A program made the translations under genes and the position numbers. Positions 17,676 to 35,969 of a stretch of DNA of 56,509 nt are shown piece by piece. The notes below the pieces were generated by a model. That model did no database searches. It worked only from the letters and a program-made list of their open reading frames with translations, and was not told the origin of the DNA. Source of the stretch: Pavlovales sp. CCMP2436 (lineage: Eukaryota > Haptophyta > Pavlovophyceae > Pavlovales); NCBI GenBank assembly GCA_026770615.1, contig MU631420.1, positions 111,718 to 168,226 of the forward strand, given 5' to 3'. Every line of letters begins with the position of its first letter. Position 1 is the first letter of the stretch.

Positions 17676-17755
17676 TTAATGTAGGGGGGTTCGGGCTGGC
17701 GGTACGTTTCAAGTTCAAGTCAGGCTGATCTAAGCGCTCTGACGCAGGCTCCTAC
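17676..17755 (-). repeat. Short dispersed repeat D (inverted copy of 55455-55545)
   Basis: About 66 bp from TATTAATGTAGGGGGGTTCG to GGCTGATCTAAGCGCTC is the reverse complement of 55455-55525. In both places GACGCAGGCTCCTACG follows on the same strand, so the inner block is flipped relative to its flank. Confidence 0.85.
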
Positions 17756-17785
17756 GCGCTACGCCGAAGTGGGGAGCTGGTAGAA

Positions 17786-18577
17786 GTGGTGGATGATGAG
17801 GAAGCCGAAAACAAAGCGCTGGAGTCGCTGCGCAACGCGGGGCCGCCCGACAGTGCGCGAGCAAGCGAGTCCATTCGTGATCCCAGCGGTGACATATCGC
17901 TGGGAAGCGAGGTGGTTTTGAATGTCGAGAACTCGTGTGCGTGTGCAGGGCTCAGGCCGCAGCGCGGGGGCGCGGTGGAAGGACTGGTTGAAGAGGGAGC
18001 CGAAGGAGCCGAGACGTCGAGCGCGAGCGAGTCCACTTGATGGCGGTTTTGGGTTTTGAATGCCGTGAACTTGTTCGCGCGTGCAGGGCGCGGGCCGCCG
18101 CGCGGGAGCGCGGTGGAAGGACTAGTTGAAGAAGGAGATCTATATTATCTGGCCTGGTTGGAGCAAAGTTCCATTTATGAAACTCGGCTTGACTACCAAT
18201 ATCTATTCGGCGAGCTACGAACGGCTTTAGTCACTACCGCTGACCCTGGTCGGTCATTTGACCTGGTTGGCTACCTGGTAGCGGCACCGTCACTCGTCTG
18301 CGCACGCGAGACCCGCGTGCTCAATCTTTCTAGCAAGCCAAACGGCTGGGAGACCCCACCTCGCGACAAGGAGTGGCGTCGCTGGCTCGGAGTGACTGGC
18401 GACGTCTACACGGCAATCGTCCAGCTTCTGACGACCCTACGAACTACCGTCGATGGGCTATGGTACACATTCGAACGAGGGACAGGGAAAATACTATGGC
18501 AGGGTGGCTCACAGATATCACTCGACCAGGAATTGGTGCTACGACTCATCCCAAACGTTCTCACTAGGAGCCTATAG
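17786..18577 (+). other. Weakly supported open frames with an internal duplication
   Basis: Two consecutive plus-strand frames (17786-18040 and 18056-18577) have no good ATG. They share a duplicated block: GGTGGAAGGACT-GGTTGAAGA near 17975 recurs near 18111, encoding AVEGLVEEG in both. The second frame continues into an acidic and aromatic segment (DLYYLAWLEQSSIYETRLDY) that looks protein-like. I recognise no family. The duplicated units each start after TGCAGGGC, so they could be tandemly duplicated exons. Confidence 0.3.
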
Positions 18578-19136
18578 GGGCGCAACGTACGCCAGTCGGG
18601 AAAGGTGCAGGTGATCGTTGGAAGTGGTGGTGAAGCCACTGTTGCAGGGGTCGATGACGGCATCACCCGGAGGTTCAGAGACGCACGAAGTCCCGAAGCG
18701 CTATATCAACTCAGTTACCTAGGACGCAATCTATAGATGTCATGGGGTGCAAGGTGAAAAATCCGGGACCCGGGCGACGCGGACCGAGCGGTCTATGGTT
18801 CCTGGAAAAATCAAAGATTCGCCAAAGGGTGAAGAGGCGGTATCCGTGTGCTCGGGGTGGATCCCTGGATCTGAGTGTTTTTCAACACTGAAATCCAGTG
18901 AGATCCTCCCGGGAACGGACATCTAACTAGAAACTTACACGCTACCTACGGTCATCAGATCATCGCGTAATCATCCACGATCATCTACGAGCAGGCACGG
19001 GATTACGTACGCTCGTAAGTGAGTCGGCAACGGGAAGTCCACCTTGATGCTCGTACTCCAAATGGAGCAATTCTTCGCTGAGGAAGAAATGTGTGCGGAA
19101 TTGCTCGCGAGCCACGGCGGCCCATGCAGAAAGTTT
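18578..19136. other. Unassigned sequence before the provirus
   Basis: No gene is supported. At 18865-18898 there is an imperfect hairpin with a 15-bp stem (CTGGATCTGAGTGTT pairing with AACACTGAAATCCAG). The provirus terminus follows. Confidence 0.4.
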
Positions 19137-19146
19137 TGCGATTGAT

Positions 19147-19232
19147 TTGTTTGATTTGCAAAATGTTATCTCTGTAATTCTCAGATTATTTTTTAGAGAA
19201 CCATATAAATAGTAAATATAAAAGTAATACAG
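19147..19232 (+). repeat. Left terminal inverted repeat of the PLV
   Basis: Reading inward, TTGTTTGATTTGCAAAATGT is followed by TAATTCTCAGATTATTTTTT and then TATAAA/AGTAAATA-rich sequence. It matches the reverse complement of 34279-34352 with a few substitutions and a short indel. Weaker similarity extends outward to about 19137. Confidence 0.87.
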
Positions 19233-19266
19233 TGTAAAGTAGTCCAAAACAGCAGGCAGAGAATAA

Positions 19267-19681
19267 GGGTCGAAATCCGAATTAGTGGCGCGATTGCGCA
19301 CTGGGGAGGGGGAAAAGTGGTGGCCGGGACGAAGAAGTAGACATTGGTCACTCCTGCGCGCTAAGTGTCGATAGCTGATGTCGAATAGAGCCCTTCTCGA
19401 CGATCGGAGCCCACCTCGTGTGCCTCTTACGTGCCTTTAGGGTCGACAACGTATTTAAACTAACATTTCCGATTCTCAGCGTTCGGAAGCGAAAAGAAAG
19501 TCATGGTTCCCGAAGTGATGCCGCGGAGTTTGTTGCACATTTGTGAATGGGGCGGTGCCCCATTCACAAATGTGCAACAAACTCCGCGGCACCACCTCCG
19601 GTTCCTGAGTTGCTCCGGAGGATTTTCACCCGACTTTTTCGAATTTCCCCCCGGACTGGCCACTAATTCGGATTTTGACCC
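19267..19681 (+). mobile_element. Fold-back MITE, copy 1 (inside the PLV)
   Basis: A 415-bp element has terminal inverted repeats GGGTCGAAATCCGAATTAGT at the left and its complement at the right (ending GGATTTTGACCC). It has no coding capacity. A perfect 35-bp stem at 19519-19553/19557-19591 with a 3-nt loop (GGT) lies off centre. It lies 35 bp inside the left PLV terminal repeat, so it probably inserted into the provirus. It is homologous end to end with 39277-39697, which is in the opposite orientation. Confidence 0.9.
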
Positions 19682-19776
19682 ATACCCGCGGGGATCATCT
19701 TATATCGACCGCTTAGACCCTGGGGACTCGATTGCGATCGACGCGCTTTGTGCGCCTTGTTACAGGTAGCATCGGT

Positions 19777-20118
19777 CTAGCATGTCAAATGCCTCGTTAA
19801 TGGAGATATGCGAGTCCTTTCCGATTCGGAACCGAGCTGTACGGATGCGTACTTGGAGTCGATAGCAAATGCAGCACTTGTTCGTAATTGTGACTTCGCC
19901 TGTTTTGCGCCGTCAATGGTTTATTTCGTTGCCTCCTTTGAACTCGTTGCATTCCTTGCACAACACCATGCTTCTCTCCTGGCAATCCTGCACGACTCCA
20001 ATGCGAGGCTTGATTTTCATATAGTAGCGTCGAAGTCCTGGGATGGGCATGCTCGACATCGTTGTTGATTGATTCCTTTATATACATGAGATTTAAATAA
20101 TGGCTCGAAAAAACGCAT
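19777..20118 (-). pseudogene. Broken PLV gene, Cys-pair protein
   Basis: Minus-strand reading from an ATG (MRFFEPLFKSHVYKG) gives about 113 codons interrupted by TGA after CRACPSQDFDATI and by TAA after SSKEATK. It ends ISPLTRHLTC. CRAC is a possible metal-binding pair. In a neighbouring frame CKECNEFKGGNEINH supplies a second pair, so a frameshift in addition to the stops is likely. I do not recognise the family. The adjoining 20180-20235 is a GATCTGATCT tandem run. Confidence 0.5.
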
Positions 20119-20538
20119 CGTTGGAATGCCAAAGAAAAATGCTCGGCATGGATCCACACGACCAGTCCGAGACACATGGGGTTCGGCTGATCTTGTCTGG
20201 TCTGGTCTGATCTGGTCTGATCTGATCTGATCTGAAATTGGTCGGTCGCGTTTTCCTGGCCAAATAAAAATCTCTGGATAGGTCATACAAGCTTTCCAAT
20301 AGCCAGCTCAATCTCGAATTCACAGGCCGACCGTCTTATCGCAAATGCTCGCTCTCGTACTGCAAATTCTCGCCCGCGTATAGTGGCTATTCGCCCCCCC
20401 TCGGGAACTTCCGCCGCCTACGCCTCCGCCACCGCCATCGCCGCCACCGCCTACGCCGCCGCCGCCGTACCTGGTATTTTACAAGTATGGCACCCTATCC
20501 AACTTAGGGCTCCGACTGTACCTCGACCAGTAACTACC

Positions 20539-21378
20539 ATGGTCCCGTGCGTTCCATTTGAAATGCTCGCTCGGAACAACCGTTACAACTTAAGTGCAAC
20601 CAGAATGAGGAACATCGAGGTTCGCATTGGATCTCTGAATGAAGACCTTACGAGAATGTTAGCAGAAAACATTGACTTTAAGCCAGGAAACCCTCCCAAA
20701 ATGCGACGACTTCCAAACAGCGACAAAGGGTTTGAAGTGACATATAGGCGAATGCTTCTCGGTGTCAGAAAAGAACACAATCGGTTTGCCCGGCTCGGTC
20801 TAGTTGGACTTGCTCCGGCTCCGGCTCTGGCCCTGGTTCATCAGCGTAGAAGACCAGATGTGTTCGTAACGAGCACATCAGCTGTACGGTTCAAGGAAAT
20901 CACTGTCAATGTTGACCATCAGGGTTGTTTGCGGTACATCGCAAAGAATTCCACCTGGATTACTCAAAACAGCCAAACTGCCAGAGAACCCTCGCTTACT
21001 ATGGGTGTCACATATGACGTTCTCGTGCATGGACTGCAATCAGATAGAGATGGTAACATCGTAATCACTTACAGCCGAAAGGCTCGCGTGACCTTAAACA
21101 AACCCTCTGATTTGGAGGACGCAATGGATTTCCGTTTTACACGAGCGGATATGTTAGCGGATAGGCTGGCCGAAAATGCAAAAAATCGCGCTAGAGAGGA
21201 GATTTACTTTCCTGGTGATTATGAAACCTTCATCACAATATTCTCGCAGCGTGATACTAGCATCACATTCACAGAAGGCATCGATGTGTCTTCGAATTAT
21301 GGCTCGGACTCGGGATCTGGCTCGGGATCTGACTCTGGCTCGAGATCTGGCTCTGGCTCGGGTCCGGTGATTTCGTGA
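20539..21378 (+). CDS. PLV protein of unknown function with Ser/Gly-rich tail
   Basis: The longest uninterrupted frame of the provirus. The open frame begins earlier at a GTG (20383), but the first ATG in frame is at 20539 (MVPCVPFEMLARNNRYN), giving 279 residues. The central part is rich in beta-strand-like segments (KEITVNVDHQGCLRYIAKN, VTYDVLVHGL, NIVITYSRKARVTLN). The end is a Ser/Gly/Asp low-complexity tail coded by imperfect GGCTCGGGATCT repeats. The next frame continues with an overlap at the stop, so the tail may mark a frameshift within a longer protein. It is the first gene of the plus-strand replication-side block. No family is recognised. Confidence 0.6.
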   Translation: MVPCVPFEMLARNNRYNLSATRMRNIEVRIGSLNEDLTRMLAENIDFKPGNPPKMRRLPNSDKGFEVTYRRMLLGVRKEHNRFARLGLVGLAPAPALALVHQRRRPDVFVTSTSAVRFKEITVNVDHQGCLRYIAKNSTWITQNSQTAREPSLTMGVTYDVLVHGLQSDRDGNIVITYSRKARVTLNKPSDLEDAMDFRFTRADMLADRLAENAKNRAREEIYFPGDYETFITIFSQRDTSITFTEGIDVSSNYGSDSGSGSGSDSGSRSGSGSGPVIS

Positions 21379-21991
21379 TTGAGGACGATCCAATTATAAA
21401 CTGCCTCGTATTGCCATTTATTCAGCGATTTAACGAGGTGGCAAAGGCTGCCCAGAATGTTCTCGATGTAACACCGGCTGCATCTCGCGAGCGACCCAAA
21501 AAGGGTGAAATGAAGGATATTGTTGCTGCTGCTGAACACACTGAGATCCAAAAAGACAATAACCGTGAAATTAAAATGCCTGAACAAGAATTAAGCGACT
21601 TCAAGAAATTAATGAAACTGTGATGGCCGCTGGGGGCATTAAGCACAAAGACCTAGAGACCATGAAAGATATTCTATCGGCGTCTGGAGCAAATTCGCTG
21701 ACAATCATTTCACCTCTTCGCCGCGGGTTTAGCTCATATATTCATATCGAAACCCCTACGCCAATTGAGAGGATTCATGGAGTCCCCAAAACACCAATCA
21801 CAATGATGTTATGCACGCCTACACACGTCAAGTCATTCAAGGGAGCAACCGCTAATGGCAATTGGTGCATCTCGTCGCAAGAAGCAATCAAGCTCGGCGT
21901 AGAAGAAATGGCGGATAAGCTTTTTAAAATAAAAAATGAGGCTCAGCTTATCGTACAGGGGATCGCGGGCAATAAAAAACCGTGGTGTTAA
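21375..21991 (+). pseudogene. Broken continuation of the preceding PLV gene
   Basis: The frame 21375-21623 has no ATG and reads directly after the Ser/Gly tail. It is helical and charged (FNEVAKAAQNVLDVTPAAS). At about 21620 the reading shifts to a second frame (KHKDLETMKDILSASGANS, then ISPLRRGFSSYIHIETPTP), ending at 21991. The two pieces look like one gene with a one-base shift. The function is unknown. Confidence 0.45.
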
Positions 21992-22123
21992 GAAACTGAG
22001 CCTCGTTTTTTTGCCCTTCACTAGTAGTTTTAACCAAAATTTAACAATTGTTTGTATGTAATTTGCTAAGAAACTCAGCCTCAGATTCAAAAAGCGCCGT
22101 CCTTATTGCCCGCGATCCGCTGT
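21954..22123. repeat. Inverted 18-20 bp sites (repeat E) bracketing scrambled sequence
   Basis: ACAGGGGATCGCGGGCAATA at 21954-21973 recurs in inverted form at about 22104-22123 (TTATTGCCCGCGATCCGCTG) and in direct form at 32133-32152 inside the minor capsid gene end. Between the first two lie two near-identical copies of AAGAAACTGAGCCTC (about 21990 and 22068). This looks like a rearrangement scar or recombination site. Confidence 0.65.
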
Positions 22124-23487
22124 ATACCCAAATGGGAGCTACAAATGCCCGCAAAAAATAATCTGCATGAACGGCACACAGTATATCCTCGAAAGTCCGT
22201 ACAGTGTTTGAAGTCGCGATGTTTGGAGGCCTTAAATCGTAAATGCCACCATAAATTCGGACAGTTCGGGAATGGTCGTGTTCAGCGCTGCTATAAATCG
22301 GTACTGTTAACCGCACGATGTAAATTCCCACTTTATGTTACATTTACAAAGGACTTGACGGATGTCGCGGTTGAAAAATGCATAAACCAGTTCCAAAAAG
22401 AACGCCTGTTAAATATAAACCAGTCAAAGGCATACACACGCGCATTTGATCCATGCATGGACGATCTTATGAGAACTTCTGGCAGGTGCATCGAAAAAAT
22501 TCATTCATCGTTTTTGCTATCTTGTCAGGAAGAAACGTTCGGTATGCTTAGACAAAAGGGCACTGAGGGTCTCTTGGTGATCAACAAGGAAAGCGTGGAT
22601 TTCACACAGGTAAAGATCAACAAATGAAAGGAGCGTGTGCTGCGCATAAACCCCGAATTAAACACGTCATTTATCACGGTTGAAAAAGTAGAGAAGAAAT
22701 TAGAGCACCTATACACTACGAAGATAGCAGTAAGCGATAGCGATACAGTTGATTTTTACACGGGTCAGATTCTTCCACAATCTTACCCTTTAGCCCCCTC
22801 TACACTTACATTTTTAGAGGCACGGTTTTGGGTGATGTGTGGTGTTAAATTTCAAGGGATTGCTGCAATGGTAAGCTACGATACGATCGAAGTAAAGTGG
22901 GATAAACGAAGCCACGAACTCAAAAATAGAATTCGCCATTACGCGAAGGCTGTTGGAGCCAGTATGCGAACCAGCACATCTGAACGTTTTCATCTAACAG
23001 GGTCCATCGATAAAGCACACGAATTTGCGGAAGTTGCTGCTGACGATCTCAACCTAGACGAATCACGAATCAAAATTAGAGCTATTGGCGAAGGGATTAT
23101 CGAAATCGAACACCCTGTAAGCGGGGTAAGTACAACTGCTCACGTATCAGGGTACATTGCATCTGCCCGACGTGTTCAGGCGGTATTCAGGCGTTTCTGA
23201 TCTCAAACTGTTTGGAGCTCGTAACCGACGGGATTTATAGCATTCGAGAAGAGGGTGTAGACTCTGAACACCTGTTGATACCAAATTTTATTACGAAAAA
23301 GAGCGGGTTCATTCCAAACAGTTTTTATACACCAAGCCTCTGTGACTTAAAAGTCAACGTCGATGAGCTAAGCGCTGAAAAACATACACTCGATTTTGAA
23401 AACATAAATAAATTAAAAAAATGTTTAAATTGCGTGATTACAAACTGTTGGGCCCTCCTGAGGCTAGCTTTGGAAAACCAACAATAA
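22124..23487 (+). pseudogene. Broken large PLV replication-side gene(s), unidentified
   Basis: Three adjacent plus-strand frames (to 22627, 22637-23200, 23212-23487) read into each other with only a stop or shift between them, so they probably come from one gene of more than 400 codons. Recognisable texture includes CINQFQKERLLNINQSKAYT, FWVMCGVKFQGIAAMV, KNRIRHYAKAVGASMRTSTS, and VTDGIYSIREEGVDSEHLLI. TDGIY is reminiscent of the acidic motif of some DNA polymerases, but this is too little for an assignment. Its place directly before the helicase and its size suit a PLV polymerase or primase. It is broken at about 22628 (TGA), 23198 (TGA) and near 23480. Confidence 0.45.
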
Positions 23488-24792
23488 TAACGGGGGCTGC
23501 GGCTTCAGGTAAGATAACATTGATTGCGATGGAAGTTATTAACATGAGCATTCCGGACTTCTTGTTTGTTTCGCCAACTCATTTGTTCCGGCAAGACGCA
23601 ACCGCAAAGGGATTCACGCAAACAATATGCCACGCTCGATTGCTAGGTGAGACCCGGTTGATCACAGAAGAAGAAAAACATGGAACTTGATAAAATATCC
23701 TGCCGCTAACATATTCGTGGATGAGGCTACGATGCTCACACAGATGGGTCGCATGAAAATTGAGGAACTTGCAGCAAGAATACTATAATTTATTCCACTC
23801 GAGACCCGTCATCGTCGGTTCATAACGACGTCACTCTCGCAAATGAATCCGCCGAAAAATGGGGTCAAGGCTGTTTTTCTTTGATGACTATTGCGAGACA
23901 ACAAACACGCCCATGCAATGCGCACCGATCGGTAGAGCCAGTATGAATATCGAAAACCTCCGTAGAGTGCACATCGATGGCGTCAAGAGAACTTCGGATG
24001 AGGATCTTATTGGGCTACAGGAATATTTGAGGCATATCATAACCGGTTCGGGTGGTGGCATTTTTGCAAAGGGAGGGTTAAATGAAGTATGTGAAAAAAT
24101 CAAGTGCGGTGATGTGGTATTAGCTGCAACGCGTGTATGCCCTCATTGCGGCCACAGTTCCTTTGAGCATTGCACATGCATGAAGGCAACATGTATAGCC
24201 GATGTAAACTTCAAGACAAAATGCGCGCGTAAGAAATACATGGATAGAAACACCCGCCCAAACGGTGAAATTGATTTGCTACCGCTGTCTAGCTATAGCT
24301 CAGTTGGGTTAAACTACGCACGCGAAATGAGGCCGACAGACGAAAATGTCGAATGGAATTGCATAAAATCGTTACGCGGCACCATGCTTGTAAATGGTTC
24401 GAGGTTCACCGCAGATCTAACAACGCCAATCTACAATGGAGTGGACATGACAGCTTACATCGGAGAGCATAACGTACTCGCCATCCTCGACCATTCACAG
24501 CTATCAAGGGATTACATTTGAAAATGAAACTCTATTCATCGATTTGAGCAATATATGGGACATGAAAATGATATATGTGGCTGTAAGCAGGGTGCGTCGA
24601 CTCGATCAAATATCAATTATTAAATGCGCGACACCAGCAGCATTTCACGGAGAGGGAGAGGAACACCTGGCCGAAAAGGCGAATCAATATTTAAATGAAC
24701 TCATGGAAGGGAAGACATTAATCGATGAATACCCGGTAGGAGACGGGAGATACGTTGCAGATCTGGCTATTTTACGGATGGAAAACATGTAA
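23421..24792 (+). pseudogene. SF1 helicase, frameshifted and interrupted by an insertion
   Basis: From ATG (MFKLRDYKLLGPPEASFGKP) the frame has Walker A GAAASGKI at residues 25-32, with Ile where Thr is expected. After a shift at about 23680 comes Walker B FVDEATML. A repeat B insertion (about 23780-23853) with a stop then separates it from motif III, which reads DDYCE rather than GDxxQ. A further shift near 24490 leads to motif V, SYQGITFEN, and motif VI, YVAVSRVRRLDQ. The order I, II, III, V, VI fits Pif1/RecD-like SF1 helicases such as those found in PLVs. An unusual Cys cluster (CPHCGHSSFEHCTC) lies between III and V. The enzyme cannot be active in this copy. Confidence 0.8.
23780..23853 (+). 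repeat. Dispersed repeat B, short copy inside the helicase
   Basis: TATAATTTATTCCACTCGAG to GAATCCGCCG matches the first 70 bp of the host copies at 9962 and 42777. It separates helicase codons for ELAARI from the motif III region, so it is an insertion. Confidence 0.8.
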
Positions 24793-24845
24793 AGGTCATC
24801 GAAGTTGTCGTGTCATCTCCTTGAAGTGAAGAAAAACTTGCATAC

Positions 24846-25136
24846 TATGCGGAACTGGGTATTGAATGCGATGTAGTGACTATTGCGGCGGCGGCGAGGA
24901 AAAATGAGCCTAATGAGCCTAATGAGCCTAATGTGCCACCAAAACCAAAACCAAAATCAGCACCCACCAAAAATGCAACTGGCTACGCTAAAAACCAGTA
25001 CAATCTGCGTTTATCGAAGACGACGAAGGCGATAATGATAATTATGATTATGAGTGCAATATGTGAAGGCGAAGGCGAAGGCGAAGGCGAAGGCGAACGC
25101 AAAGGCGAAGGCGAAGGCGAAGGCGAAAAAGCATAA
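24846..25136 (+). repeat. Low-complexity coding-like region with GAAGGC hexamer array
   Basis: An open frame ends in GAAGGC units at 25063-25129 (encoding Gly-Glu repeats). It is preceded by three AATGAGCCT units near 24903. It probably belongs to the helicase C-terminal tail or to a small linker gene. No product is recognised. Confidence 0.5.
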
Positions 25137-25177
25137 ATAAATATCAAACAAGAACAATAACAAGAACAAAAAGAACC

Positions 25178-25531
25178 ATGGATTGCGTAACATATCTAAC
25201 AAGCTCAGAACAAATACTCGAGACACGGCTCAACGAAATTACCAAGGTAGTTAGCGAATGTCAAATCAAATGGCCAGTCGATAGTATACGTTTGATTAAT
25301 GTAAAGCGTCTTAAAGGCAACTGCATTGTGGGGAAATTCTCCCACGACAAACGTCTCTACTTTGAAGTTAATCCATGTTTTGCATCGGTTATTGTACGCG
25401 GAAGAGTGTGCGAAAATACTGAGAATGCCTTAATCAATCGCAGCACAATGCTAATTCTATTTGATCCAGAAATATGTAACATAGTCGATGATGATGATGA
25501 TGATGATGATAATAAATGTTGCGGGAATTAA
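25178..25531 (+). CDS. Intact small PLV ORF with Asp-rich tail
   Basis: The 117-residue frame starts at ATG (MDCVTYLTSSEQILETRL) after an A-rich leader (25130-25175), ending ACC before ATGG. It is predicted alpha/beta: helix LNEITKVVSECQI, strands LINVKRLKGNCIVGKFS and RLYFEVNPCFASVIVRGRV. The end is an Asp run coded by GATGAT repeats. No family is recognised. It is one of few uninterrupted frames in the provirus. Confidence 0.55.
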   Translation: MDCVTYLTSSEQILETRLNEITKVVSECQIKWPVDSIRLINVKRLKGNCIVGKFSHDKRLYFEVNPCFASVIVRGRVCENTENALINRSTMLILFDPEICNIVDDDDDDDDNKCCGN

Positions 25532-25778
25532 GATTTCATAAAAATTGGCTTTTAATTTGGTTTTAATTGGCCTTTAATTGGCATTTAACTAGCGTGGCGT
25601 GGCTTGTTTGCACTTTTTGCACTTTTTTGCACTTTTTTCTATGCCAATGATGATGATAATTAGAATTAGAATTATACGATGCAGTGCGAGACATACAAGT
25701 GCCTAAAGAGAGACGTAAAGCATGCCCGAAAGCTAACAGAGATGGAACCGGCCGCAATTCATGTAGATTCATCGATGT
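25532..25778. other. Intergenic within the PLV
   Basis: The region lies between convergent gene ends. It contains repeated TTGGC/TTTAATTGG and TTTTTGCAC units (25545-25640). Transcription may end here, but no clear terminator signal is seen. Confidence 0.35.
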
Positions 25779-26413
25779 TCACCGCAGATTTCCAAGACTG
25801 TGCGATTTTGCCACATTGGCCAGGAAACGTATGGGCCCTGGAAGAAGCCAGTTCGCCCGGTTTCGCTGATTCTCATACACCATTTTCTGGCTTTCGGACC
25901 TCCGACCTAGTGTAGAGAGAGCCGACACCGCATCCAGTTTGGTTCGCACATCGGTTTGCCTGATGCCGCTCGGTTGGCGCCTGCCTATGTCACCTAAACC
26001 CGCAGCTTTGTTAATCGTAACGATTTGCCCTCTCGAGCCAGACTGTTCTGCCAGACGCCCCCCAAGCTGTGCCCGACTGAATACGCCGGGCGATTATACT
26101 TTTTCTCAGTCGCAGACGTTATGCTGCGGGCGAGATTTAGTCTATCGGTTTTCTTGTGTGCTCTTACCACGATAAGTGCATCGTCGACGAGCCAATCCCT
26201 TGCCGTCACGCTTCCTCGGTGCGCAATAACGGGCTGGCCGCTGCTTCGGTCGATGAAGACCATCGTGTTCGGTCGTGAGAGTTGTATATCGAGTGTGTAC
26301 CCAATCGTGTTCCCGTAAGCGGCGGCTTCTGTTAGTGGCATGTACGATGCTTCTGCAAGATTCGCCGAGTCTTGCTTAAATTTGTTGTCTTTGGTCGCGG
26401 TCGCGGTCGCCAT
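25779..26413 (-). pseudogene. Class 3-type lipase, frameshifted
   Basis: From ATG (MATATATKDNKFKQDSANLA), the first 139 codons are intact and include VIAHRGSVTARDWLVDDA, the usual oxyanion/lid region. GHSLGG follows at residues 114-119, the nucleophile elbow with the catalytic Ser. Near 25994 the frame shifts. The continuation reads TINKAAGLGDIGRRQ, VRTKLDAVSALSTLG and SHSLGNL before a TGA. The first frame instead runs into a stop after RLTKLRV. Lipases of this kind recur in PLVs and related viruses, where they may help entry or exit through host membranes. A homopolymer T tract of 21 bases lies directly upstream (26431-26455). Confidence 0.78.
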
Positions 26414-26481
26414 TGTACTATTGGTCGGCTTTTTTTTTTTTTTTTTTTTTTTTTTAGATATTTAGATATTTAGCCATTTAT

Positions 26482-28633
26482 TCAACTGAGCTTCGTAACA
26501 ATCCCCGGTAGAGCAAACTTGTAAAGTCCCGTATTCACCACTCTATCGCTTCTTGTGAGGATAATATTGTACGTGCAGTCTACGGGTGTGCTTACCATGC
26601 TGACTGGTGCGCCACTCGTGTCACCCATGATCAACTTAAAGGAATTGTCCGAAACGGATATAGCGCTCATTAAGTTGATACGGCCTATAGACCACCCTGC
26701 GTATAGCTTCATGTCAACAATCATCGCATAATCTGTAGAGTCAGGCTGCAACTTCGTAACACTTAACCGCCAAATCGAATATTATGGGTGAGCAACGGTT
26801 ACAGCGAATGTCTTTACCTCACCAGTAAAGGTCCAATTAGGGCCAGCGAACGACTGCACATTTGAAAATGAGGACTTATCGTTGCTTCCAGAGAGAGTCC
26901 ACTCTGCCGGCGTAGCACCACCAGCTACTTGGCCTGTCAGGTCGTATGATTTCAATGTCACCGGCTCTGGAAACGTGATTTGGAGCCACTGACTCCCCAA
27001 ACGAGTTGTTGCATTGTGGCCACCAGATGATGTCCACTGTGCTCCAGTTCCATCAAACCCACGCCAAGCTTCCTTTGCACTATTAAAACTGGTACTCGTT
27101 GCGGACCACCCATTTGCGATTTGCCAGTCGCTTGTTGAAGCAACCGTTGTTGCCGAGATGAACACAGGACTTCCCTTTGTTGCTATGCTTGCCACGACTG
27201 TTGGATCGAAGGCCGGTGTCACAATGACTTGCATTGGACCGAGAATGGTCCGAGCCATGAATCGACAGTTTTTACGCTCAATATACTGACAAGCGGGTCA
27301 AAATTCAATAGAGTCTGTAATGTATCAATGACGTTATACGGGTCCTCGTTTTGAGCACGGCCGATTATGTTACCCGAAAAGTAAAAATCGTGACCGATCA
27401 CTGTAGGTAGCCTTTTTTCCGATAAATCCACCAATGTCAGGTTACGAGCCTCGCTTGAAAGTACAGCTAGCCTTGATATTGGAGACACGGTCCCGCTATA
27501 AGCACTGTGCACCAGGGACCTACCGCAGACTCGACGTGTTGGCTTGTAGATTTGAGTATAAAACTGATGTTCACGCTGCTCTCTAGGTTTCGTATCATTT
27601 CAGTATCGCCTGCATAAAACAACAAATTTGCGTTACCTAATATAAATGTAAATCGCAGCGTAGGATCGTATCGAATGGTCGCGATATTTTGCTCGTCGAC
27701 GAACCTCGTTATATCGTATTTGATCTGCCTGGTTGTGAGCCCGTGACCAGTACCTCGACAGTTATGCGCTTGCTAGCATCGACTACGATTCTACCGCGGA
27801 TGTAGGCTACCTGTGCAACATTGGGGAACGGGCGTGCGGGCATATTCAAATTCCAAAACGGATTTATGGTGGTGCTCACGTTTAGACCGAGGTTGTTTTT
27901 GCTTGCATTGCTGCCGGAATACCGGTCTACTTCGAAGTAAATTCCGTTCTTATATGTCCCATAATCGATGGAGGCAATGAACGATGCAACAAATTTTCCA
28001 GTTGGGATATCAAACGATAGAGCGCAATGCCCATAGCTATGTGTGAAGCTTGCATATGCTACCGCTGGAGTCATTGTGGATTTCCATTTCGCAACAACCA
28101 TCGTAGGAGTGTCCAAAGATGACCAGAAAAAAATTCTCTGCTGTGTCTGCCCAGGGATGTACCTGAATACCGTCACCTGATACGTAGTCGCACTCACTAC
28201 ATCTTCGGGTAGGAGTTGATTAATATTATACGTCGAAGCTTTTGGAACTGTCGTCGTTTCATCTTCAAGTAGCTTGGTGTCTCCAAGAACGCAAATACAC
28301 CCGGCCGAGATAGCATTCACGCGAGATAAATTGTACTTAACGAACACCCACCGACTTGGTTATGATTGCTCCGAGCGATATAGGTAGCGCCGATTCTGCC
28401 ACGTAGGTCAGTGGCGAAGTGTAAAGTGTTTTGTCAGAAGGCAAGGACAGCTCGTCAGCTCCGATATTGGCAGGCAATTTTTTCTTCAATATTTTTGTGA
28501 TCTCGCGAGTTTGATTCTGTGGTGTTTCTGAAGGGGAGAAGCTGAACTGTGTGGTTGCGCTTGAGAGCACCGTGCACAGGTCGATATCGATTTCCAGGCC
28601 TATTGTCGGAAGTGCTCTGTAAACGTTCGACAT
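26482..28633 (-). pseudogene. Large PLV structural/fibre-like protein with F5/8C domain, multiply broken
   Basis: Minus-strand frames 28633-28337, 28347-27709, about 27715-27515, 27512-27219, 27258-26782 and 26751-26482 form one gene of roughly 700 codons, broken by at least four shifts or stops. The N-terminal two thirds are beta-rich (FFWSSLDTPTMVVAKWKS, ALSFDIPTGKFVASFIASI). The C-terminal part is a discoidin (F5/8 type C) carbohydrate-binding domain: WRGFDGTGAQWTSS, then SQWLQITFPEPVTLKSYDL, EWTLSGSNDKSSF, and after a TAA, RLSVTKLQPDSTDYA. F5/8C domains bind glycans, so a role in host attachment is likely. It sits between the lipase and other structural genes on the same strand. Confidence 0.7.
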
Positions 28634-28684
28634 GTTTATGAGTGAGCCTTACATTTTTTTATGATTCGATTTGTTTAATTTTAG

Positions 28685-28911
28685 GCGCCACCGGTTCGCC
28701 GCATGGAAATAAATTTATCGAGGGTCAGACGGTGAACGCCGAATAGTCGCACGCGATGCCTTCCGTATTTGCTAATTAGCTTCTGAAGGATATTTTCGTT
28801 ATTCAGAAGCCTGAAATCTGGTTATTTTCATCTTGTACTGTCCTGGTAGGACGATTTCGCAGATCGCTCATCTTGCCGGTTCGGATGATTTCTTCATTCG
28901 TGAGGTTCATG
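28685..28911 (-). pseudogene. Small PLV gene, one frameshift
   Basis: From ATG, MNLTNEEIIRTGKMSDLRN runs to a TGA after NQISGF. The neighbouring frame continues as NENILQKLISKYGRHRVRLF and ends HRLTLDKFISMRRTGGA. About 75 codons in all, basic, with no recognised family. It is read on the same strand as the structural genes. Confidence 0.5.
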
Positions 28912-30056
28912 TCAAGTCCTTCGAGTTGCACCTGGCGCCGAGATTTTGACTTGGGTGGGGAGATTGGTAATCCTCATATGCTTTAGAGGAGGAAGACCCG
29001 CCAGCAGGCTTATGCTCCTCATATGCCTTTTCCTTAACGGTCTTTGAGCCTACGCTTTTAGCCCTGGTTAATGCGGGGGAAAGCGGTGCGGCTGCGGATT
29101 GTGCCGGTTCTGGTGCCTGGGGCTGTGGTGTCTGGGGAGGTGCAGCAACCGCGGAAAAGGTCACGCTGAGAGCACCTAGAACTTGCAATGGACTCCGAGC
29201 GGTTAGCATTTGTGGCATAGGTAACATTGGTGACATCGGCGGCTGATAAATTGACGACACTACCGTATGGAATTTGTTGTGGTTGAAACGGAGCCTAAAT
29301 TGTAGGACTGGTATACTGAAGAGGCGACTGGACATTAGGTTGAGCCGGCTGGACGGCTCGGGTATTCGGAAAAACATATACCGACGAAGAAGCCGATGCA
29401 GCCGAAGGAGCCGATGCAGCCGAGGGAGCCGAAGGAGCCATGAGCGGGATACCTAGAGCAATGGAAGGGGAATGGGGCATTGGTATCATCGAGGGAGGAA
29501 GTGGTTGGGTCGGTATGTATTCAGGCTGCGGATCGTATGTAGTGGGCTGTACAATCCCCGAGTTTGGAATTGGTCGGTTCGCAGGACGAATCCTATTGGC
29601 CCGCGCTCACATTTCGGCTGGAGACAAAAGTGGATTAAAAGCAACATTGGGCCCGCCGACGCCTTGTCTTGCAGCAAATGGGGTCTTTTGGGCGTTAAAT
29701 GGCTGAAGCCGTTCTGGGATTACGGTGCGGTTTAAAAATGGATCACCGTTAGTGTCATTCAGAATATCGGTGTAGATCACTGGCTGGAATGCAGTCGAAA
29801 TCGATTGTATAGCTCGATCGGTACGGTCTAGGATCTTCTTGTTTGGAGGGATTATCACCGGTCTCTGACTGAACACCAGCCTCTCGCTTAGCGCGTGGTG
29901 GCGCTGCCCAGTCCTATACTGCGGTCTACCGTTGCCAAAAATTGGGTGAAGGGCACCATCGTATGGTTGACCGTTTCAAATGTAGTTGGTCGTTCGGTTT
30001 CGAGGGTCGGTGTCGAGCTAGTCTATCATCTTGTTATCTTTGAGATTATCCACCAT
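28907..30056 (-). pseudogene. Pro/Ala-rich PLV protein, multiply broken
   Basis: From ATG near 30056, MVDNLKDNKMID is followed by a TAG, then further pieces with stops (TGA near 29980, TGA near 29606) and shifts. Recognisable parts are FSQRPVIIPPNKKILDR, NRTVIPERLQPFNAQKTPF, a Pro/Ser/Ala region (APSAPSAASAPSAASASSS), and a Pro-rich tail (PQTPQPQAPEPAQSA). The composition suggests a virion or scaffold protein. No family is recognised. Confidence 0.5.
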
Positions 30057-30125
30057 TTTTTAATGCAAACTGTGTTTTCCCGGTATGCAATAACCCAACA
30101 TTTTAATTTGGTTTATTGATTTTAA

Positions 30126-30892
30126 TTATTTCTTGGTGTACGTCAATTTTGCAAACCGGTTATATATAAGCACATTTGATACATCTAGGTACATAATTTG
30201 AGGTGAGTCCCCTCCTGGTGGGAAGCAGTGATTGTATAGCGTCTGGAATTCGATCTTGTCACGGGATACTAACTCATCTCTTATCGAATCCAATTTTCGT
30301 AAATTGCTAAAACGAAACATGAACAGGGCTGAGATGAGCTTGCGGATCGTTAATAAGATTGACCTGTACGTCTGTGTTATTACCCAGATGCTCACCCGTA
30401 GATGCCGTCTGTTGCAAATAAGCTTCTCAAACGATTGCCTCAGGGTATTATCTTTCAAGCTAGCCATAAAATTATTGACGATCAAGAGCGTATTTTGCTT
30501 CTTCTTGGACGAGGCTTCCAGTTTAAATATCAATAACTCGAGGGATTCCTTTGTGAGCTCGTGATGGACCTTGTCGTGGTTCTGGAAGGGCGAGTCTGTC
30601 ATGCTCGCGAAGGATATGGCTGACACAAACAAGTGGACCGCATCGAAAAACCCGGATAGATACTTGGGCTCGCCTGTGTTAAAAGTGCAGTGCTTAGTGA
30701 GGTTTTACCGGATCGGGGAGGACCCAGATAAACGGCAAACATGGCCTGATTAGGCAGCGGTGGAGGGATGGCACCGAGTGGAGCGTCTACATAGAAACGT
30801 GGAATGGTGAGAGCGATGTGATTATCCTCTTCCACCACATTCGTCGATTTTTGCGCTGTATGCGTCTCTACGTGCGGAGGTTCAGTCGACAT
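30126..30892 (-). pseudogene. FtsK/HerA-type genome packaging ATPase, one frameshift, altered Walker B
   Basis: The start is ATG at 30892 (MSTEPPHVETHTAQ). Walker A GPPRSGKT is at residues 57-64. The frame shifts by one base in a T run near 30650, and the second frame runs to 30126. It contains LICNRRHLRVSIWVITQTYR and TIRKLISALFMF, which match A32-like/PLV packaging ATPases in order and spacing. The Walker B strand reads TLLIVNNFM; two Asn replace the expected acidic pair, so catalysis would be lost even without the frameshift. It pumps DNA into the procapsid in relatives. It is read divergently from the capsid genes. Confidence 0.82.
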
Positions 30893-30989
30893 TCGTTTTT
30901 TTTTCGGTTGTATGCTATATACAATTATTTTCATGTTTATCTTTATTTTATATTCATTTATATTTAATCTTTATCTTTATTTATATTTA

Positions 30990-31483
30990 TCAGAGATAGC
31001 GCACTGAAGGCCTCGGAGGTGGGTACGTTTGGTACCTTAGAGGAGGGTGCAGCTCTTCTGCGAGTTTAGCTGGTACTTCATCGATGTAATTTTGTTGTAT
31101 TGGTATTGGTATTGGTATTGGCATTGGTATTGGCATTTGTGGGGGCTGGGATGTATTAAACCCGTACTTTGCTGCGAGTTTGATTTCGCCGTTTCACCTC
31201 TGAAGCGGCTGCAACTCGACTCGCCTTTGCATCGGCAAGGAGCTCTACTCGACGAGCGTTCGCCTTGATGTAGTTGAGCCTCTGTTTTTCGGATACAGTC
31301 CGCTTTGCCTTCACAGGTGGTACAGGCACGACGCTGCTTCCTGGGTTTGGACTGGTACTGGGGCGGTCGGGGTGGCTATAGGGGTGCTTATAGGGGCGGA
31401 AACAGGTATCATAGCTGCAATCGTTATCTCTGCGACTTCTTCAGTTACTGCGCTGGTATGCGATGTCTCTTGTGCTTTTTCCA
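30990..31483 (-). pseudogene. Basic/Pro-rich PLV gene, broken
   Basis: From ATG at about 31483, MEKAQETSHTSAVTEEVAE reads to an Ala/Pro stretch and a stop near 31310. A second frame gives a strongly basic helix (RVELLADAKASRV, KRRNQTRSKVRV). A third gives Pro-Ile repeats coded by the TATTGG hexamer array at 31097-31138. It may be a minor virion or DNA-condensing protein; no family is recognised. Confidence 0.4.
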
Positions 31484-31668
31484 TTGACAGTAAAATTTGG
31501 CTTTATGATATACTATATCAACAGTTTGAATCTCTATCAGTAAATATACTATATCAACATTTTTAATTCAAATTCCCACCAAAATTCCCAAAGTAATTTC
31601 CAACATTATTTCAAAAATAGTCGGATAGTTCGATAGTCCGATAGTCAGATATAAATGAATTGTTACAG

Positions 31669-32151
31669 ATGGTGCTTCATCGACTATTTCTAGCCTCGGA
31701 TCAAGCCGACCGCTACATGATAGACTTAGACCGGACTGACTCTCTCCAGTTCGACCTGGCACCAGGAATCTCCCTTAAACCGCAAGAAAACATGTATGTT
31801 CGGCTTGGGTCTGCTAGCATACCAATCGTGCAGTGCAACGTGAATACCAAGAATAACAAGCTCGTTCTGTTCTACGGTGTATCCCAGACGCTGACGGTAA
31901 CAATCTCGGTTGGGAATTACACAAGTAGTACGGATCTCGCATTAGCCATGAATGCAACGGCCGGCTTCGGGTCAACCGGTCTTACTGTCGCTTACTCCAA
32001 ATTCTCAAATAAATTGACGTTTTCGCACAGCCAGACAGCATCGATAACTATTGTTACAGCGACAAGCACGATGCAGATTATCGGCATGAATAAATTGAAC
32101 AATCTCGTTGTTCCTTCGAGCGTGCCGACTACAGGGGATCGCGGGCAATAA
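31669..32151 (+). CDS. Candidate PLV minor capsid/penton protein
   Basis: The intact frame of 160 residues starts at ATG 31669 (MVLHRLFLASDQADRYM); a TTG nine bases earlier is not needed. The pattern is that of a single jelly roll: DSLQFDLAPGISLKPQENMY, VRLGSASIPIVQCNVN, NKLVLFY, LTVTISVGNYTSSTDLALAM, SKFSNKLTFSH. Similar short beta-rich proteins encoded just before the major capsid gene in PLVs are minor capsid (penton) proteins. The last residues (TTGDRGQ) are coded by repeat E, so the native C terminus may have been replaced. Confidence 0.6.
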   Translation: MVLHRLFLASDQADRYMIDLDRTDSLQFDLAPGISLKPQENMYVRLGSASIPIVQCNVNTKNNKLVLFYGVSQTLTVTISVGNYTSSTDLALAMNATAGFGSTGLTVAYSKFSNKLTFSHSQTASITIVTATSTMQIIGMNKLNNLVVPSSVPTTGDRGQ

Positions 32152-32195
32152 GAAGCTGTAGTGCACTGGACGTAATTAAAATTCCGAGGCTAATT

Positions 32196-32268
32196 GTACT
32201 ACTTCACTCGCGAGAGTGACGTCGTTATGAACCGACGATGACGGGTCTTGAGCGGAATAAATTATAAA
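32196..32268 (-). repeat. Dispersed repeat B, short inverted copy
   Basis: The reverse complement reads TATAATTTATTCCGCTCAAG to CGACGTCACTCTCGCGAGTG and is nearly the same as 23785-23845. It lies in the spacer between the minor capsid gene and the next small gene. Confidence 0.8.
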
Positions 32269-32287
32269 CTATAGCAAACATTTTTCG

Positions 32288-32646
32288 ATGCAGTTTGGTC
32301 GGTTTCTCGGGCGAGTTGTTGGATTTGAAGCTAAGGCGCTCCATGCAGTTCAGCGATTTGGTACCATGGCTGGGGAGTATCTTCACAAAGGATCAGCAAT
32401 CGGAGCTCGTGTTGCAAAGATTGCCAGGTCTGGTTTGGACGCTATCGACAGGAGTGATCTGATCTAGGCAGAGTCCCAGGTGTCGGCGAGTTAATCGGGG
32501 TCGGTCGTGATGCGTCTAACGTGATTGACATGGCTTCGCGGGTCGCCGGTAGAGCAGGCAATATTGCTTCACGCGTAGGTCAATCCAAGGAGCTACGGGG
32601 CCTTACCACGCAATTCGAACGAACTGCAAACTCGCAGGGTGGTTAA
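32288..32646 (+). pseudogene. Small PLV gene upstream of the capsid gene, one frameshift
   Basis: ATG 32288 starts MQFGRFLGRVVGFEAKALHA; the frame ends at TAG 32465-32467 after RSDLI. One base over, the sequence continues as RVPGVGELIGVGRDASNVID to QFERTANSQGG and TAA at 32644. Together they give about 118 residues, amphipathic, Gly/Ala/Arg-rich. Its position next to the capsid gene and its composition suggest a small virion protein such as a membrane-active or core peptide. Confidence 0.5.
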
Positions 32647-32782
32647 ATACAAAATTACAAAAATATACAAAAGATACAAAAAAGATACACACAAAAAAGA
32701 TTTTTAAGATGGTCCAAGATGAAACCAGGACGATGCTAAATAAAAATCTCGTGGTATGTCATAACCAACCAATTCAAGCGCT
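32647..32782 (+). promoter_or_regulatory. A-rich leader before the major capsid gene
   Basis: 32647-32708 is built from repeated ATACAAAA and AGATACA units and is almost free of T runs. A similar A-rich leader precedes the intact ORF at 25178. It may be a late promoter or leader of the virus. Confidence 0.35.
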
Positions 32783-34052
32783 ATGTCATCAGAAGCGCTC
32801 CCGGATTTTTTCAACTACGTTCCCCGCCCGGTTGCACCACATGCGAGATGATCCGCCATTATTTGACTTCAACTGGTGGTGTGACTTCGCAAACTGGTGG
32901 CAGCAAGGCGGAGCTCTCGATTCCATGCTGCAACCCAGGTCTGCACCTCGATCCCTCTCAGACGGTACTGTCTTTCCAGATCAACAACAATACCTCAGGG
33001 CCTATGACGCTTGAAGGTGGGGCTTACGCCATCATCCAGAGCATCGACGTCTTCTTCGGAGTGTCCACATTAGCTTGATCGACGAGTACGGTGCGCTGTT
33101 TGCGCTCACCCAGGACTTCACCACGGATCTTGACTCGCTTCGCAGCTCCGGAACGGTTCGCGGTGTGGCCGACTTCCTCCCCACGGCGGTAGCCTCTGCG
33201 GCAAACATTAAAGATGCATATTACGCCCGGAATGGTGCCACGATTGCCGCTGCTGGGAATCTCATGGTCGCACTCCCCCTGATGTCCGTTCTTGGAACGC
33301 TCGCTATGAAGGCAATTCTACTCAGCCAGCTCCAGGACTCGATTAAGCTCTAAATAAAATGGGCGACTCAGAACAACTGGGGGATTTTCGTGGACGCCGC
33401 AGCATCGACGACGGGGTGCACGGTCCACGACATCAAATTGCACATTAGCCAGGTCCGCCTCGACGGAGCGGTTGAGCGCGCTACGATGGACAGCCTCGGC
33501 GGGATTGTTCACTGCCCCACGCTAGACTACCAGCACTTTCGCTCTACCGTGGCCCCGAACTCCGGCTTTATTTCGATGCAGATCCCGATCCGTGTAAGCT
33601 CCGCATGCAATGTATTTATAATTCTGAGAGAGTCTGCGATAACTTACTCATTTTCACGCGAGATGATCTCCCAGCGCACTAAGTCAGGAATGGAATCGTA
33701 TAGATTCTGTGTCGGAGCTGCTGTCATCCCTCAAACGGCTATTAATTGCACTGGTAGTGCAGCGGAGGCTCGCTTTGAACTTGCTCGGACGTTCGGCTCA
33801 AGTGTTGCGGACACGGCCGCACGCTCGTGCATCTCGGCTGAACAGTACCTCACCGATGGAAACGCATTTGGCCTGTCCCTGCAGGCTTTTTCACAGACCG
33901 ATGCGCTATCCGATGGTATCTCGACGCGTAATATGCACGTTGTTTTCAAGTCGAAAATATCAGCTAGCAACCCTGCCTGCTACCTGGATGTGTGAGTGCA
34001 GCACGAGAAGATCATCGTGTGCCAGAACGGGCTGATGACCTATGAATCGTAG
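32783..34052 (+). pseudogene. PLV major capsid protein, multiple frameshifts and stops
   Basis: From ATG 32783 the frame reads MSSEALPDFFNYVPRPVAPH, then shifts by one base to RHYLTSTGGVTSQTGG and CCNPGLHLDPSQTVLSFQIN. A second shift near 33070 leads to LIDEYGALFALTQDFTTD. A TAA at 33351 follows DSIKL, and the same frame then continues through HDIKLHISQVRLDGAVERA, IVHCPTLDYQHFRSTVAPN and QIPIRVSSACNVFIILRESA. TGA at 33993 is followed in frame by QHEKIIVCQNGLMTYES to TAG 34050. The order of segments and total length (about 420 codons) match PLV double-jelly-roll capsid proteins. It cannot make a capsid as it stands. Confidence 0.85.
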
Positions 34053-34278
34053 AAGGAGAAGGAGAAGAAGACTCAAGACGCATGAGGCACAAAGAGACGC
34101 AAAAAAAGAAAAAGAAAGAAAAAACACTCATAAAAAACACCCACGAACACCATCAATCATGCGCACAAAGCGCGTCGATTGAAATCGAGTCCCATGGCCT
34201 AATCGGTCGATCGAAAATGATTCCAGCGGGTATTCTCTGCCTGCTCATTTTTGACTGCTTATTTTTGACTGCTTTAAA

Positions 34279-34352
34279 CTGTATTTACTTTTATATAGTT
34301 ATCTAAAAAATAATCTGAGAATTATAGGGACAACTTTTTGCAAATCAAACAA
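34279..34352 (-). repeat. Right terminal inverted repeat of the PLV
   Basis: CTGTATTTACTTTTATATAG, then CTAAAAAATAATCTGAGAAT and TTTTTGCAAATCAAACAA, form the inverse of the left terminus. The 49-bp tandem repeat begins only four bases further out. Confidence 0.87.
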
Positions 34353-34355
34353 GAC

Positions 34356-34551
34356 AACGCACTACATTACCTTCTCTGTGAGGCTCACAAGATCCCCACT
34401 ATGCAACGCACTACATGACTTTCTCTGTGAGGCTCACAAGATCCCCACTATGCAACGCACTACATGACCTCCTCTGCGAGGCTCACAAGATCCCCACTAT
34501 GCAACGCACTACATGACCTCCTCTGTGAGGCTCACAAGATTCCCATCATGC
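34356..34551 (+). repeat. Four tandem copies of a 49-bp unit abutting the PLV end
   Basis: Units start AACGCACTACATGACCTCCT and end CACAAGATCCCCACTATGC, at 34356, 34405, 34454 and 34503. They differ by a few bases. Related but more diverged units lie at the inner end of the left repeat C copy (17150-17260). Confidence 0.9.
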
Positions 34552-35083
34552 CCATCATGCCCATCATGCCTCCCAATCATGCCCCCATCATGCCCCCACC
34601 ATGCCGAGCGCTGGCTCTTTAACTGCTTTCAAGCGCCAAAAAGGCTACCGCAAAACCAAGGCCCAGCCCCGTGTACACCAATTAAGTCTGTGCACCCTAT
34701 GCCCCATCATGTCCCCACCATGCCTAGCGCTGGCTCTTTAACTGCGCTCAAGCGCCAAAAAGGCTACCGCAAAACCAAGACCCCAACCCCGTGTACACCA
34801 ATAAAATCTGTGCATGCTCCTCCATGCGCCAACACGATCCCACACCCCCCCCACCCCTCCCGCGATCCACGCAGAATCTACTAAATGAAATACACCACAG
34901 TGATCCACCGCGATACTACCAGGAATACCACCAGGAAACTATGGAGCACGTACCACGCATGCGCGAAAACACAGAATTCACATAAAACCCACGAACCGCG
35001 AGCAGGCTTTGCAGTTCTACACGGGATCACGCAAGATCACGAAAGCCCGTGGTCGAAAAAGAATTGGTGTACCGCTCATAGAG
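34552..35083 (-). repeat. Large dispersed repeat C, right copy
   Basis: This is the inverted counterpart of 16644-17200. It contains the 110-bp subunit twice (CGAGCGCTGGCTCTTTAACT to CCCGTGTACACCAAT, about 34603-34685 and 34720-34803). Its outer end stops about 20 bp from the RNase T2 stop codon. Confidence 0.9.
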
Positions 35084-35102
35084 TAGTGGGTGCACGTCGG
35101 TC

Positions 35103-35969
35103 TCACAGGCGGACGCTCGTGCAAAAGCCAGAGCGCGCGCACCGCACGCAGCCGCCCATGGACGAGCAGTCCGCGTCCCTCGCGCACGCTGGGCCATGGC
35201 GGTTTGGCTCGCATGTGACCGATGGCTGTGGCTCGGGCGCGAGCGCGGGTGCCGGCCCGCCCCCGCCGCACACCTCGGCGAAACTCGTGACGGGCGCGAG
35301 CTTCCAGGTGATAGTGCCGTGTGCGTTGCGCGAGCCGCACGCGGAGAGGAGAAGCTGCGAGTCGGCCAAATCAACGGTGTGGACGGAGTAGCCCTCCTTG
35401 GTCACCGCCGTCGCCATATCACCGAGGCTACCTGCGTTCTTTCTGACCTGGCTCATCACCTTGAGGGGGCCCTGTGCCAGCTGGCAGACCTGCGCGAAGA
35501 AGTCGTCCTCGGAGGCACTCCCGGCGCAAGTGCCGTGCTTGGACCACTCGTGCTCGACAAACCACTGCTGGTGGTCTGGATTGATCGACGGGGCGCTGTA
35601 GCAGGACGGGAGGCCAGGCTTGGGCGGCGCCATGCTCTTCGGCCGCAGGCACTGCGAGTTGCCGTACGGCGGAACCTGCGGCCACAGGCCGTGGACGGAC
35701 ACGTCGTCGTGGTGGTAGTAGCTCGGGCCGAAGCCGGTCTCGAGGGCGAGCACGCCGCACACCGCCGCGCCGCCGCAGTCCATGCCGCTGTGTGTGTCGC
35801 GCAACGCACCGCTGGGCTCGATGTCGAGGCCGGTGGAAAGCCAGCCGACGATGGCGACGGTGCCGACGATGGCGACGGTGCCGACGGCGGCGAGCAACGC
35901 GGGCCAGCGTGCCGTCGGTGCGCGGTCCTCGTGCAGACCGTACGACGGCTCCGGGCTGGCCTTCGCCAT
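35103..35969 (-). CDS. RNase T2 family ribonuclease, membrane-anchored, Cys-rich tail
   Basis: The predicted protein has 288 residues from the ATG of MAKASPEPSYGLHEDRA. It contains both catalytic signatures: CAS1 in SVHGLWPQ (93-98) and CAS2 in EHEWSKHGTC (139-148), with both catalytic His present. These enzymes cleave RNA through a 2',3'-cyclic phosphate and act in the secretory route, vacuole or outside the cell. A hydrophobic segment (ALLAAVGTVAIVGTVAIVGW) begins at residue 24 after a polar stretch, so it is either a signal anchor or an internal signal peptide. The C terminus adds a Cys-rich module (CEPNRHGPACARDADCSSMG) with eight Cys, absent from typical T2 enzymes. The end lies next to repeat C. 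Confidence 0.88.
   Translation of the reverse strand: MAKASPEPSYGLHEDRAPTARWPALLAAVGTVAIVGTVAIVGWLSTGLDIEPSGALRDTHSGMDCGGAAVCGVLALETGFGPSYYHHDDVSVHGLWPQVPPYGNSQCLRPKSMAPPKPGLPSCYSAPSINPDHQQWFVEHEWSKHGTCAGSASEDDFFAQVCQLAQGPLKVMSQVRKNAGSLGDMATAVTKEGYSVHTVDLADSQLLLSACGSRNAHGTITWKLAPVTSFAEVCGGGGPAPALAPEPQPSVTCEPNRHGPACARDADCSSMGGCVRCARSGFCTSVRL

Follow-up and report, generated by a model that had tools for sequence, protein, structure and literature searches.

A decayed polinton-like virus in a chromosome of an Arctic pavlovophyte: its most likely ends and a near-tip gene that seems to switch sides

Introduction

Polinton-like viruses (PLVs) integrated in protist genomes encode a double-jelly-roll capsid, a minor capsid protein and a packaging ATPase, and are bounded by terminal inverted repeats (TIRs) of hundreds of bases. 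They measure 14-40 kb, shift in GC content, harbour nested repeats and undergo big expansions within single genomes (available portions of PMC10120064 and PMC12220804). Here, we describe an element sharing these traits in a window of 56,509 nucleotides, the whole stretch of DNA analysed, from the haptophyte Pavlovales sp. CCMP2436 (contig MU631420.1, positions 111,718 to 168,226). The host is a pavlovophyte from Arctic waters, with a published genome of 165.4 Mb according to the available part of PMC9756366. Protist genomes can hold PLV-type capsid genes in numbers reaching into the thousands, as the same portions of PMC10120064 and PMC12220804 indicate.

An earlier reading of this DNA, hereafter the original prediction, proposed a complete-length integrated PLV of 15 kb with TIRs at 19147-19232 and 34279-34352. 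Taken as a whole, the locus is in our judgement probably best explained in another way: as a decayed PLV relic of about 18.4 kb whose true ends are a pair of outer repeats, and which belongs to a family where one gene close to the tip, here called gene X, switches between ends.

Results

The relic most likely spans positions 16647-35081 (18,435 bp), beside an open RNase T2 gene, because longer inverted repeats sit outside the pair originally proposed and because gene X, a PLV gene, lies between the outer and inner repeats on the left. The left outer TIR (16647-17212, plus strand) starts with TATGAGCGGTACACC. The right one (34489-35081, minus strand) lies about 20 bp from the stop of the RNase T2 open reading frame (ORF; 35103-35969, minus strand; Pfam match at 2.2e-9). 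At the tips the two repeats are 94-96% complementary, with 148 of 154 aligned bases identical, and the similarity stops abruptly at TATGAGCGGTACACC on either side. Over their full length 491 of 518 aligned bases are identical (641 columns including gaps). Aligned as one match the pair covers 550 columns at 82%; in blocks, 16640-16733 pairs with 34994-35087 (94%) and 16730-16800 with 34926-34996 (96%), with more blocks beyond. With this outer pair, the element has TIRs of hundreds of bases and a length, 18.4 kb, within the 14-40 kb range of PLVs. Pieces of the outer repeats also occur about 1.4 kb behind the major capsid protein (MCP) gene in two (L016, L019) of the eight close relatives whose MCP was read with 1.5-kb flanks.

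Much of the original prediction stood. There is an integrated PLV in an algal chromosome, its gene order is as described, and its GC content is lower than that of the adjacent host DNA (0.479 in 16647-35081 vs 0.624 and 0.643 in the flanks). The PLV assignment of the 15-kb element also held, but its length most likely did not, the element being probably about 3.2 kb longer. The repeats then named do exist (19142-19209 and 34290-34357, 68 nt, 88% complementary); their terminal status is not confirmed, because longer inverted repeats and gene X lie outside them and a repeat resembling a miniature inverted-repeat transposable element (MITE) splits the left copy. The first repeat search was confined to 18-36 kb and thus blind to the longer outer pair.

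The case for PLV membership is good, and includes a double-jelly-roll model from a relative, an A32-like ATPase, TIRs and size. The MCP gene (32782-34040, plus strand), which had been placed at 32.8-34.0 kb, is homologous in pieces to a 478-residue relative, C228. The model of this relative, built from 24 sequences (mean predicted local distance difference test score, pLDDT, 63; predicted template modelling score 0.67), matches capsid proteins of Singapore grouper iridovirus, PBCV-1, mavirus (6g45, 9.7e-14), Sputnik and PRD1, as well as viral capsid models. Hence a comparison with double-jelly-roll capsids that had been set beforehand came out positive for the predicted fold of C228, and the window copy is tied to it by homology only. 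Pfam and PDB sequence searches returned no match for the MCP. The predicted motif GPPRSGKT lies in an ORF at 30599-30934 (minus strand), within the A32-like packaging ATPase gene (30129-30934, minus strand). It matches Pox_A32 (4.2e-5; 23.6 bits, cut-off 22.8), and the ATPase of a relative does so with 30.7 bits. A likely minor capsid gene (31669-32142, plus strand) was recognised by its expected place and by homology only, and has no Pfam match. There is also a superfamily-1-like helicase gene (22331-24981, plus strand), whose relative matches the Dda-like helicase family (1.5e-4); a PDB sequence search with part of it gave weak unrelated matches only. The lipase-like gene (25782-26413, minus strand) has the expected GHSLGG, in an ORF at 25994-26413 (minus strand), and no match in a Pfam scan. 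The F5/8 type C domain of the gene at 26482-27258 (minus strand) was recovered as an F5_F8_type_C match (3.2e-5), but with a score below the profile cut-off.

Relatives of this element are numerous in the same genome. The searched assembly has 119 Mb in 703 contigs. The MCP matches listed merge into at least 145 places on 122 contigs, a lower bound, with 150 of 151 matches listed and 150 of 244 candidates scored. The gene order of the window recurs, since 103 of the 145 listed MCP places have an ATPase gene within 8 kb, and in 84 MCP-ATPase pairs the ATPase lies at about -3 kb on the opposite strand, as it does in the window. The original prediction had further suggested that this gene order may mark a new PLV lineage, an idea that these data test weakly.

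Gene X (17588-18739, plus strand) is a PLV gene. In the relative C296 it adjoins PLV gene 1 at about 80% DNA identity. Genome-wide it gives 108 matches. The placement analysis used 85 of them, which merge into 84 places; the 23 left out are mostly short secondary pieces. Of these 84 places, 59 have a listed MCP place no more than 20 kb away and, conversely, 61 of the 145 listed MCP places have gene X within that distance. With the MCP set on the plus strand, these fall mostly into three classes. In type A, which includes the window (n=12), gene X lies at -9.7 to -16.2 kb on the same strand. In type B (n=19) it lies at about +0.6 to +1.45 kb on the opposite strand. In type C (n=20) it lies right behind the MCP, at about +0.8 kb on the same strand; this is the layout of a second PLV clade (L040, L041; about 20 listed places) whose capsids share about 31-35% identity with the window's piece. 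The other 10 places have gene X elsewhere. Gene X points inward in types A and B alike, and outward in the distant clade.

The positions of gene X were mapped on a tree of 18 capsid fragments (201 columns) that includes 10 of the 12 type A rows, four of the 19 type B rows and four unlabelled ones. The label needs three changes (bootstrap 5-95% range 3-3), and the well supported branches force three. Keeping type A together against type B is rejected (approximately unbiased test, p=2.8e-5; without C447, p=2.2e-4). From the 14 labelled rows of this tree, gene X seems to have switched ends at least three times in the family. An in silico inversion of the segment between the window's inner repeats moves gene X to 1.45 kb behind the MCP, a distance that borders the range observed for type B.

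One might suppose instead that gene X is itself mobile, like a homing nuclease gene, and that its placements in types A and B are separate landings and not reshuffled tips. By eye, its N-terminus resembles what we take to be a GIY-YIG nuclease motif. Free-standing GIY-YIG genes are common in PLVs, according to the available portion of PMC12220804, which lends this possibility some weight. But the resemblance finds no support in profiles, PDB or fold: gene X has no match in Pfam, PDB or PHROGs, PDB giving weak unrelated matches only, and its structure model is unusable (mean pLDDT 36). Moreover, 51 of the 61 listed placements fall in the three position classes, whereas free jumping would give a wider scatter. 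The outward-pointing gene X of the distant clade suits neither homing nor tip reshuffling in any simple way. On balance we find separate landings somewhat unlikely, though they deserve serious consideration. Separately, the gene models P0057 and P0058 fuse part of gene X to a lipase-like stretch with a weak Abhydrolase_6 match.

The inner repeats (19142-19209 and 34290-34357) are most likely internal and not ends. The left one covers 19142-19756 (minus strand) in two parts, 19142-19263 and 19685-19756, separated by the MITE-like repeat of about 420 bp (19264-19684), which has TA on both sides and 39 other scored copies at 88-93%. The right one covers 34161-34357 (plus strand). Once the MITE-like repeat is removed, the two match at 163 of 187 aligned bases (204 columns). 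Both carry a 23-base non-coding motif, TCTAAAAAATAATCTGAGAATTA, at 19175-19197 and 34302-34324, embedded in a conserved stretch of about 100 bases that is complete in the left copy and broken off in the right one near 34352, where 49-bp tandem repeats start. The motif gives 30 matches at up to two mismatches in 119 Mb, i.e. 28 further places, vs none for the reversed control. In close relatives it stands directly behind the MCP, exact in C287 and C91 and with 3-4 mismatches in C296, C3 and C174. In the distant clade it lies mostly at about -4.7 kb from the MCP. It is thus almost unchanged between elements with only about a third of their capsid residues in common. An Rfam scan of 16-36 kb gave no match.

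These data also bear on the idea that a PLV of 15.2 kb, bounded by 19142 and 34357, is nested in a separate, older element that brought gene X and the outer repeats. Three observations speak for it: the inner repeats do exist, at 88% complementarity, the right one stops at the start of the tandem repeats, and the outer repeats have few strong DNA matches. However, gene X accompanies PLVs across the genome, as the 59 of 84 places show, and in C296 it adjoins gene 1 with no inner repeat between them. In addition, the motif stretch behind the MCP of close relatives continues beyond the inner-repeat border, as does the window's left copy, and this border is therefore no general end. We regard such a nesting as improbable and retain the outer repeats as the likely ends of the relic.

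The element is a fossil and not intact, contrary to its earlier description as complete in length. Decay was judged gene by gene against the proteins of C296 and C228, and against P0041 for gene X. Frame changes, stops, truncations or inserts affect 13 of 15 genes, including the capsid (a frame change and two stops) and the packaging ATPase (a frame change). Gene X is split by an insert and carries a frame change and a stop. The insert is a 466-bp high-copy repeat (17672-18137) with the 11-base word GATCTATATTA at both borders and dozens of scored copies at 94-99%; the C110 copy of gene X lacks it. Gene 1 (20299-21608, plus strand; function unassigned) cannot be judged because its C296 relative is itself in pieces. 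Gene 2 (21662-22298, plus strand; function unassigned) has two stops and is interrupted by a 171-bp repeat (21954-22124) with 22-nt inverted ends, also present in C228 (L057 7883-8054). These two and the MITE-like repeat make three nested repeats in the relic. The helicase gene has several frame changes and stops, the lipase-like gene a frame change and the F5/8 type C gene one stop. The only gene free of lesions is a small unassigned one at 25.2 kb, a single open frame (25178-25531, plus strand).

The remaining genes are all conserved and decayed. On the minus strand, two without assigned function lie at 28051-28633 (a frame change) and 29460-30053 (three stops), and two small ones at 28687-28943 (a frame change) and 30993-31487 (stops and a frame change). 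Another small one, on the plus strand, lies at 32288-32637 (a frame change and a stop). The likely minor capsid gene matches 158 of 255 residues; its missing 3' part is replaced by a patch (32130-32266) made of an end of the 171-bp repeat and of a 64-bp piece of the helicase (23784-23847) copied inverted to 32203-32266. A piece similar to this 64-bp copy was also seen on C411 near outer-repeat-like sequence (L067 774-843).

Frame breaks could not be read as introns where gene pieces join without a gap. Sequencing error is disfavoured because the adjacent host genes, Nop52 and RNase T2, are open. That the breaks are assembly errors in an intact element is very improbable: stops in such elements can be assembly artefacts (available portion of PMC10120064), but base errors do not account for large inserts, a truncation and a rearranged patch, the host genes next to the element are open, and by a hand count about 69 of the 150 capsid matches listed for this assembly fall within frames of 400 residues or more that contain no stop.

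Beyond this genome, the C228 capsid query returned 39 proteins: 35 from Pavlovales sp. CCMP2436, one from Diacronema lutheri (44%) and three from Joint Genome Institute contigs. The ATPase query returned 40 relatives, 10 from CCMP2436 and 30 from other, environmental sets (41-60% identity). Because these 30 come from other sources, related viruses are probably widespread. Relatives P0062-P0087, from environmental sources at 46-60% identity, hint at kin in other hosts or free in water. Scans of IMG/VR with the MCP piece, the ATPase piece and the MCP alignment gave a single match, L033, which was dropped as a chance hit: by eye it is a phage-like contig matched through a recombinase-like frame. 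A tblastn search of INPHARED phage records with the MCP piece gave no match.

Discussion

The gene content suggests how the virus may have worked. The A32-like ATPase would have driven linear DNA into a double-jelly-roll capsid, the superfamily-1-like helicase would have helped to copy this DNA, and the lipase-like and F5/8 type C proteins might have served for cell entry. The decay after insertion into the chromosome is seen directly: gene X, gene 2 and the left inner repeat received repeats, and further changes broke the capsid, the ATPase and most other genes.

The switching of gene X would most likely result from inversion between near-terminal inverted repeats like those of the window copy. 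Alternatively, one tip may have been copied onto the other and parts later lost; the motif copies of this single case would also fit such a route. Inversion through the inner repeats as a rule for the whole family was considered and is not supported, given C296 without the left repeat and type B places without a nearby motif. One might go further and speculate that pavlovophyte PLVs have an end-switching system, in which near-terminal inverted repeats invert the body against the tips and gene X has alternated between ends at least three times. The relic would then keep both repeats, and the 23-base motif would be a recombination site or a replication signal. In this full form we hold the idea to be unlikely.

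Several observations weigh against our interpretation, some against the ends and others against the switching. At the outer ends, any target-site duplication visible by eye is limited to the two bases TA. Neither an empty site nor another copy of these outer tips was found; the outer repeats have further DNA matches only in C617 and C411, and these end before the tip. The genome gave no match to PF00589 (tyrosine recombinase integrase) and four to PF00665 (rve), all scoring below the cut-off and all farther than 20 kb from every listed MCP place; divergent integrases could escape these profiles. The left inner repeat is absent from C296, itself of type A, which leaves the inner pair seen in the window copy only, and none of the 19 type B places has a motif match within 20 kb. 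The tree is thin, with 201 columns and four of the 19 type B rows. When Diacronema is used as outgroup its supported branches force a single change. On the tree of 18 fragments the gene X label is not clustered: label sets drawn by shuffling took about as many changes (3.7 on average), and 137 of 500 of them took as few as the real one.

If the outer repeats are the ends, this case illustrates how inverted repeats inside a provirus can be mistaken for its termini, hiding a gene and about 3 kb of virus. The analysis also documents a large PLV family in the genome of an Arctic haptophyte. We found no earlier report of it in the literature searched: none on Pavlovales and polintons, and none on these elements in the available portions of the literature on CCMP2436 (including PMC5294986 and PMC9756366), a strain that may figure in the supplementary tables of large surveys. 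The fossils of this one genome form a record on which the idea of repeatedly reshuffled virus tips can be tested.

Compared with Maverick/Polinton elements, the relic has in common capsid, ATPase, TIRs and integration, but their hallmark pair, protein-primed DNA polymerase B (pPolB) and the rve integrase, was not found in it. Neither had a match among the scanned ORF pieces of the window or the scanned proteins of relatives, and the only genome match to PF03175 (polB), 7.4 kb from one MCP place, is below the cut-off. The relic differs from the PLVs integrated in other protists in having no recognised integrase. This is not unusual, since PLVs mostly lack pPolB and the rve integrase (available part of PMC11071308). 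It also differs in that the near-tip gene X changes ends among its Pavlovales relatives, which is not described in the available portions of PMC10120064 and PMC12220804. Finally, the Phaeocystis globosa PLV Gezel-14T/PgVV is cultured and depends on a giant virus. Likened by their description only (same portions of PMC10120064 and PMC12220804), the two are PLVs tied to haptophytes, that of Phaeocystis measuring about 19 kb.

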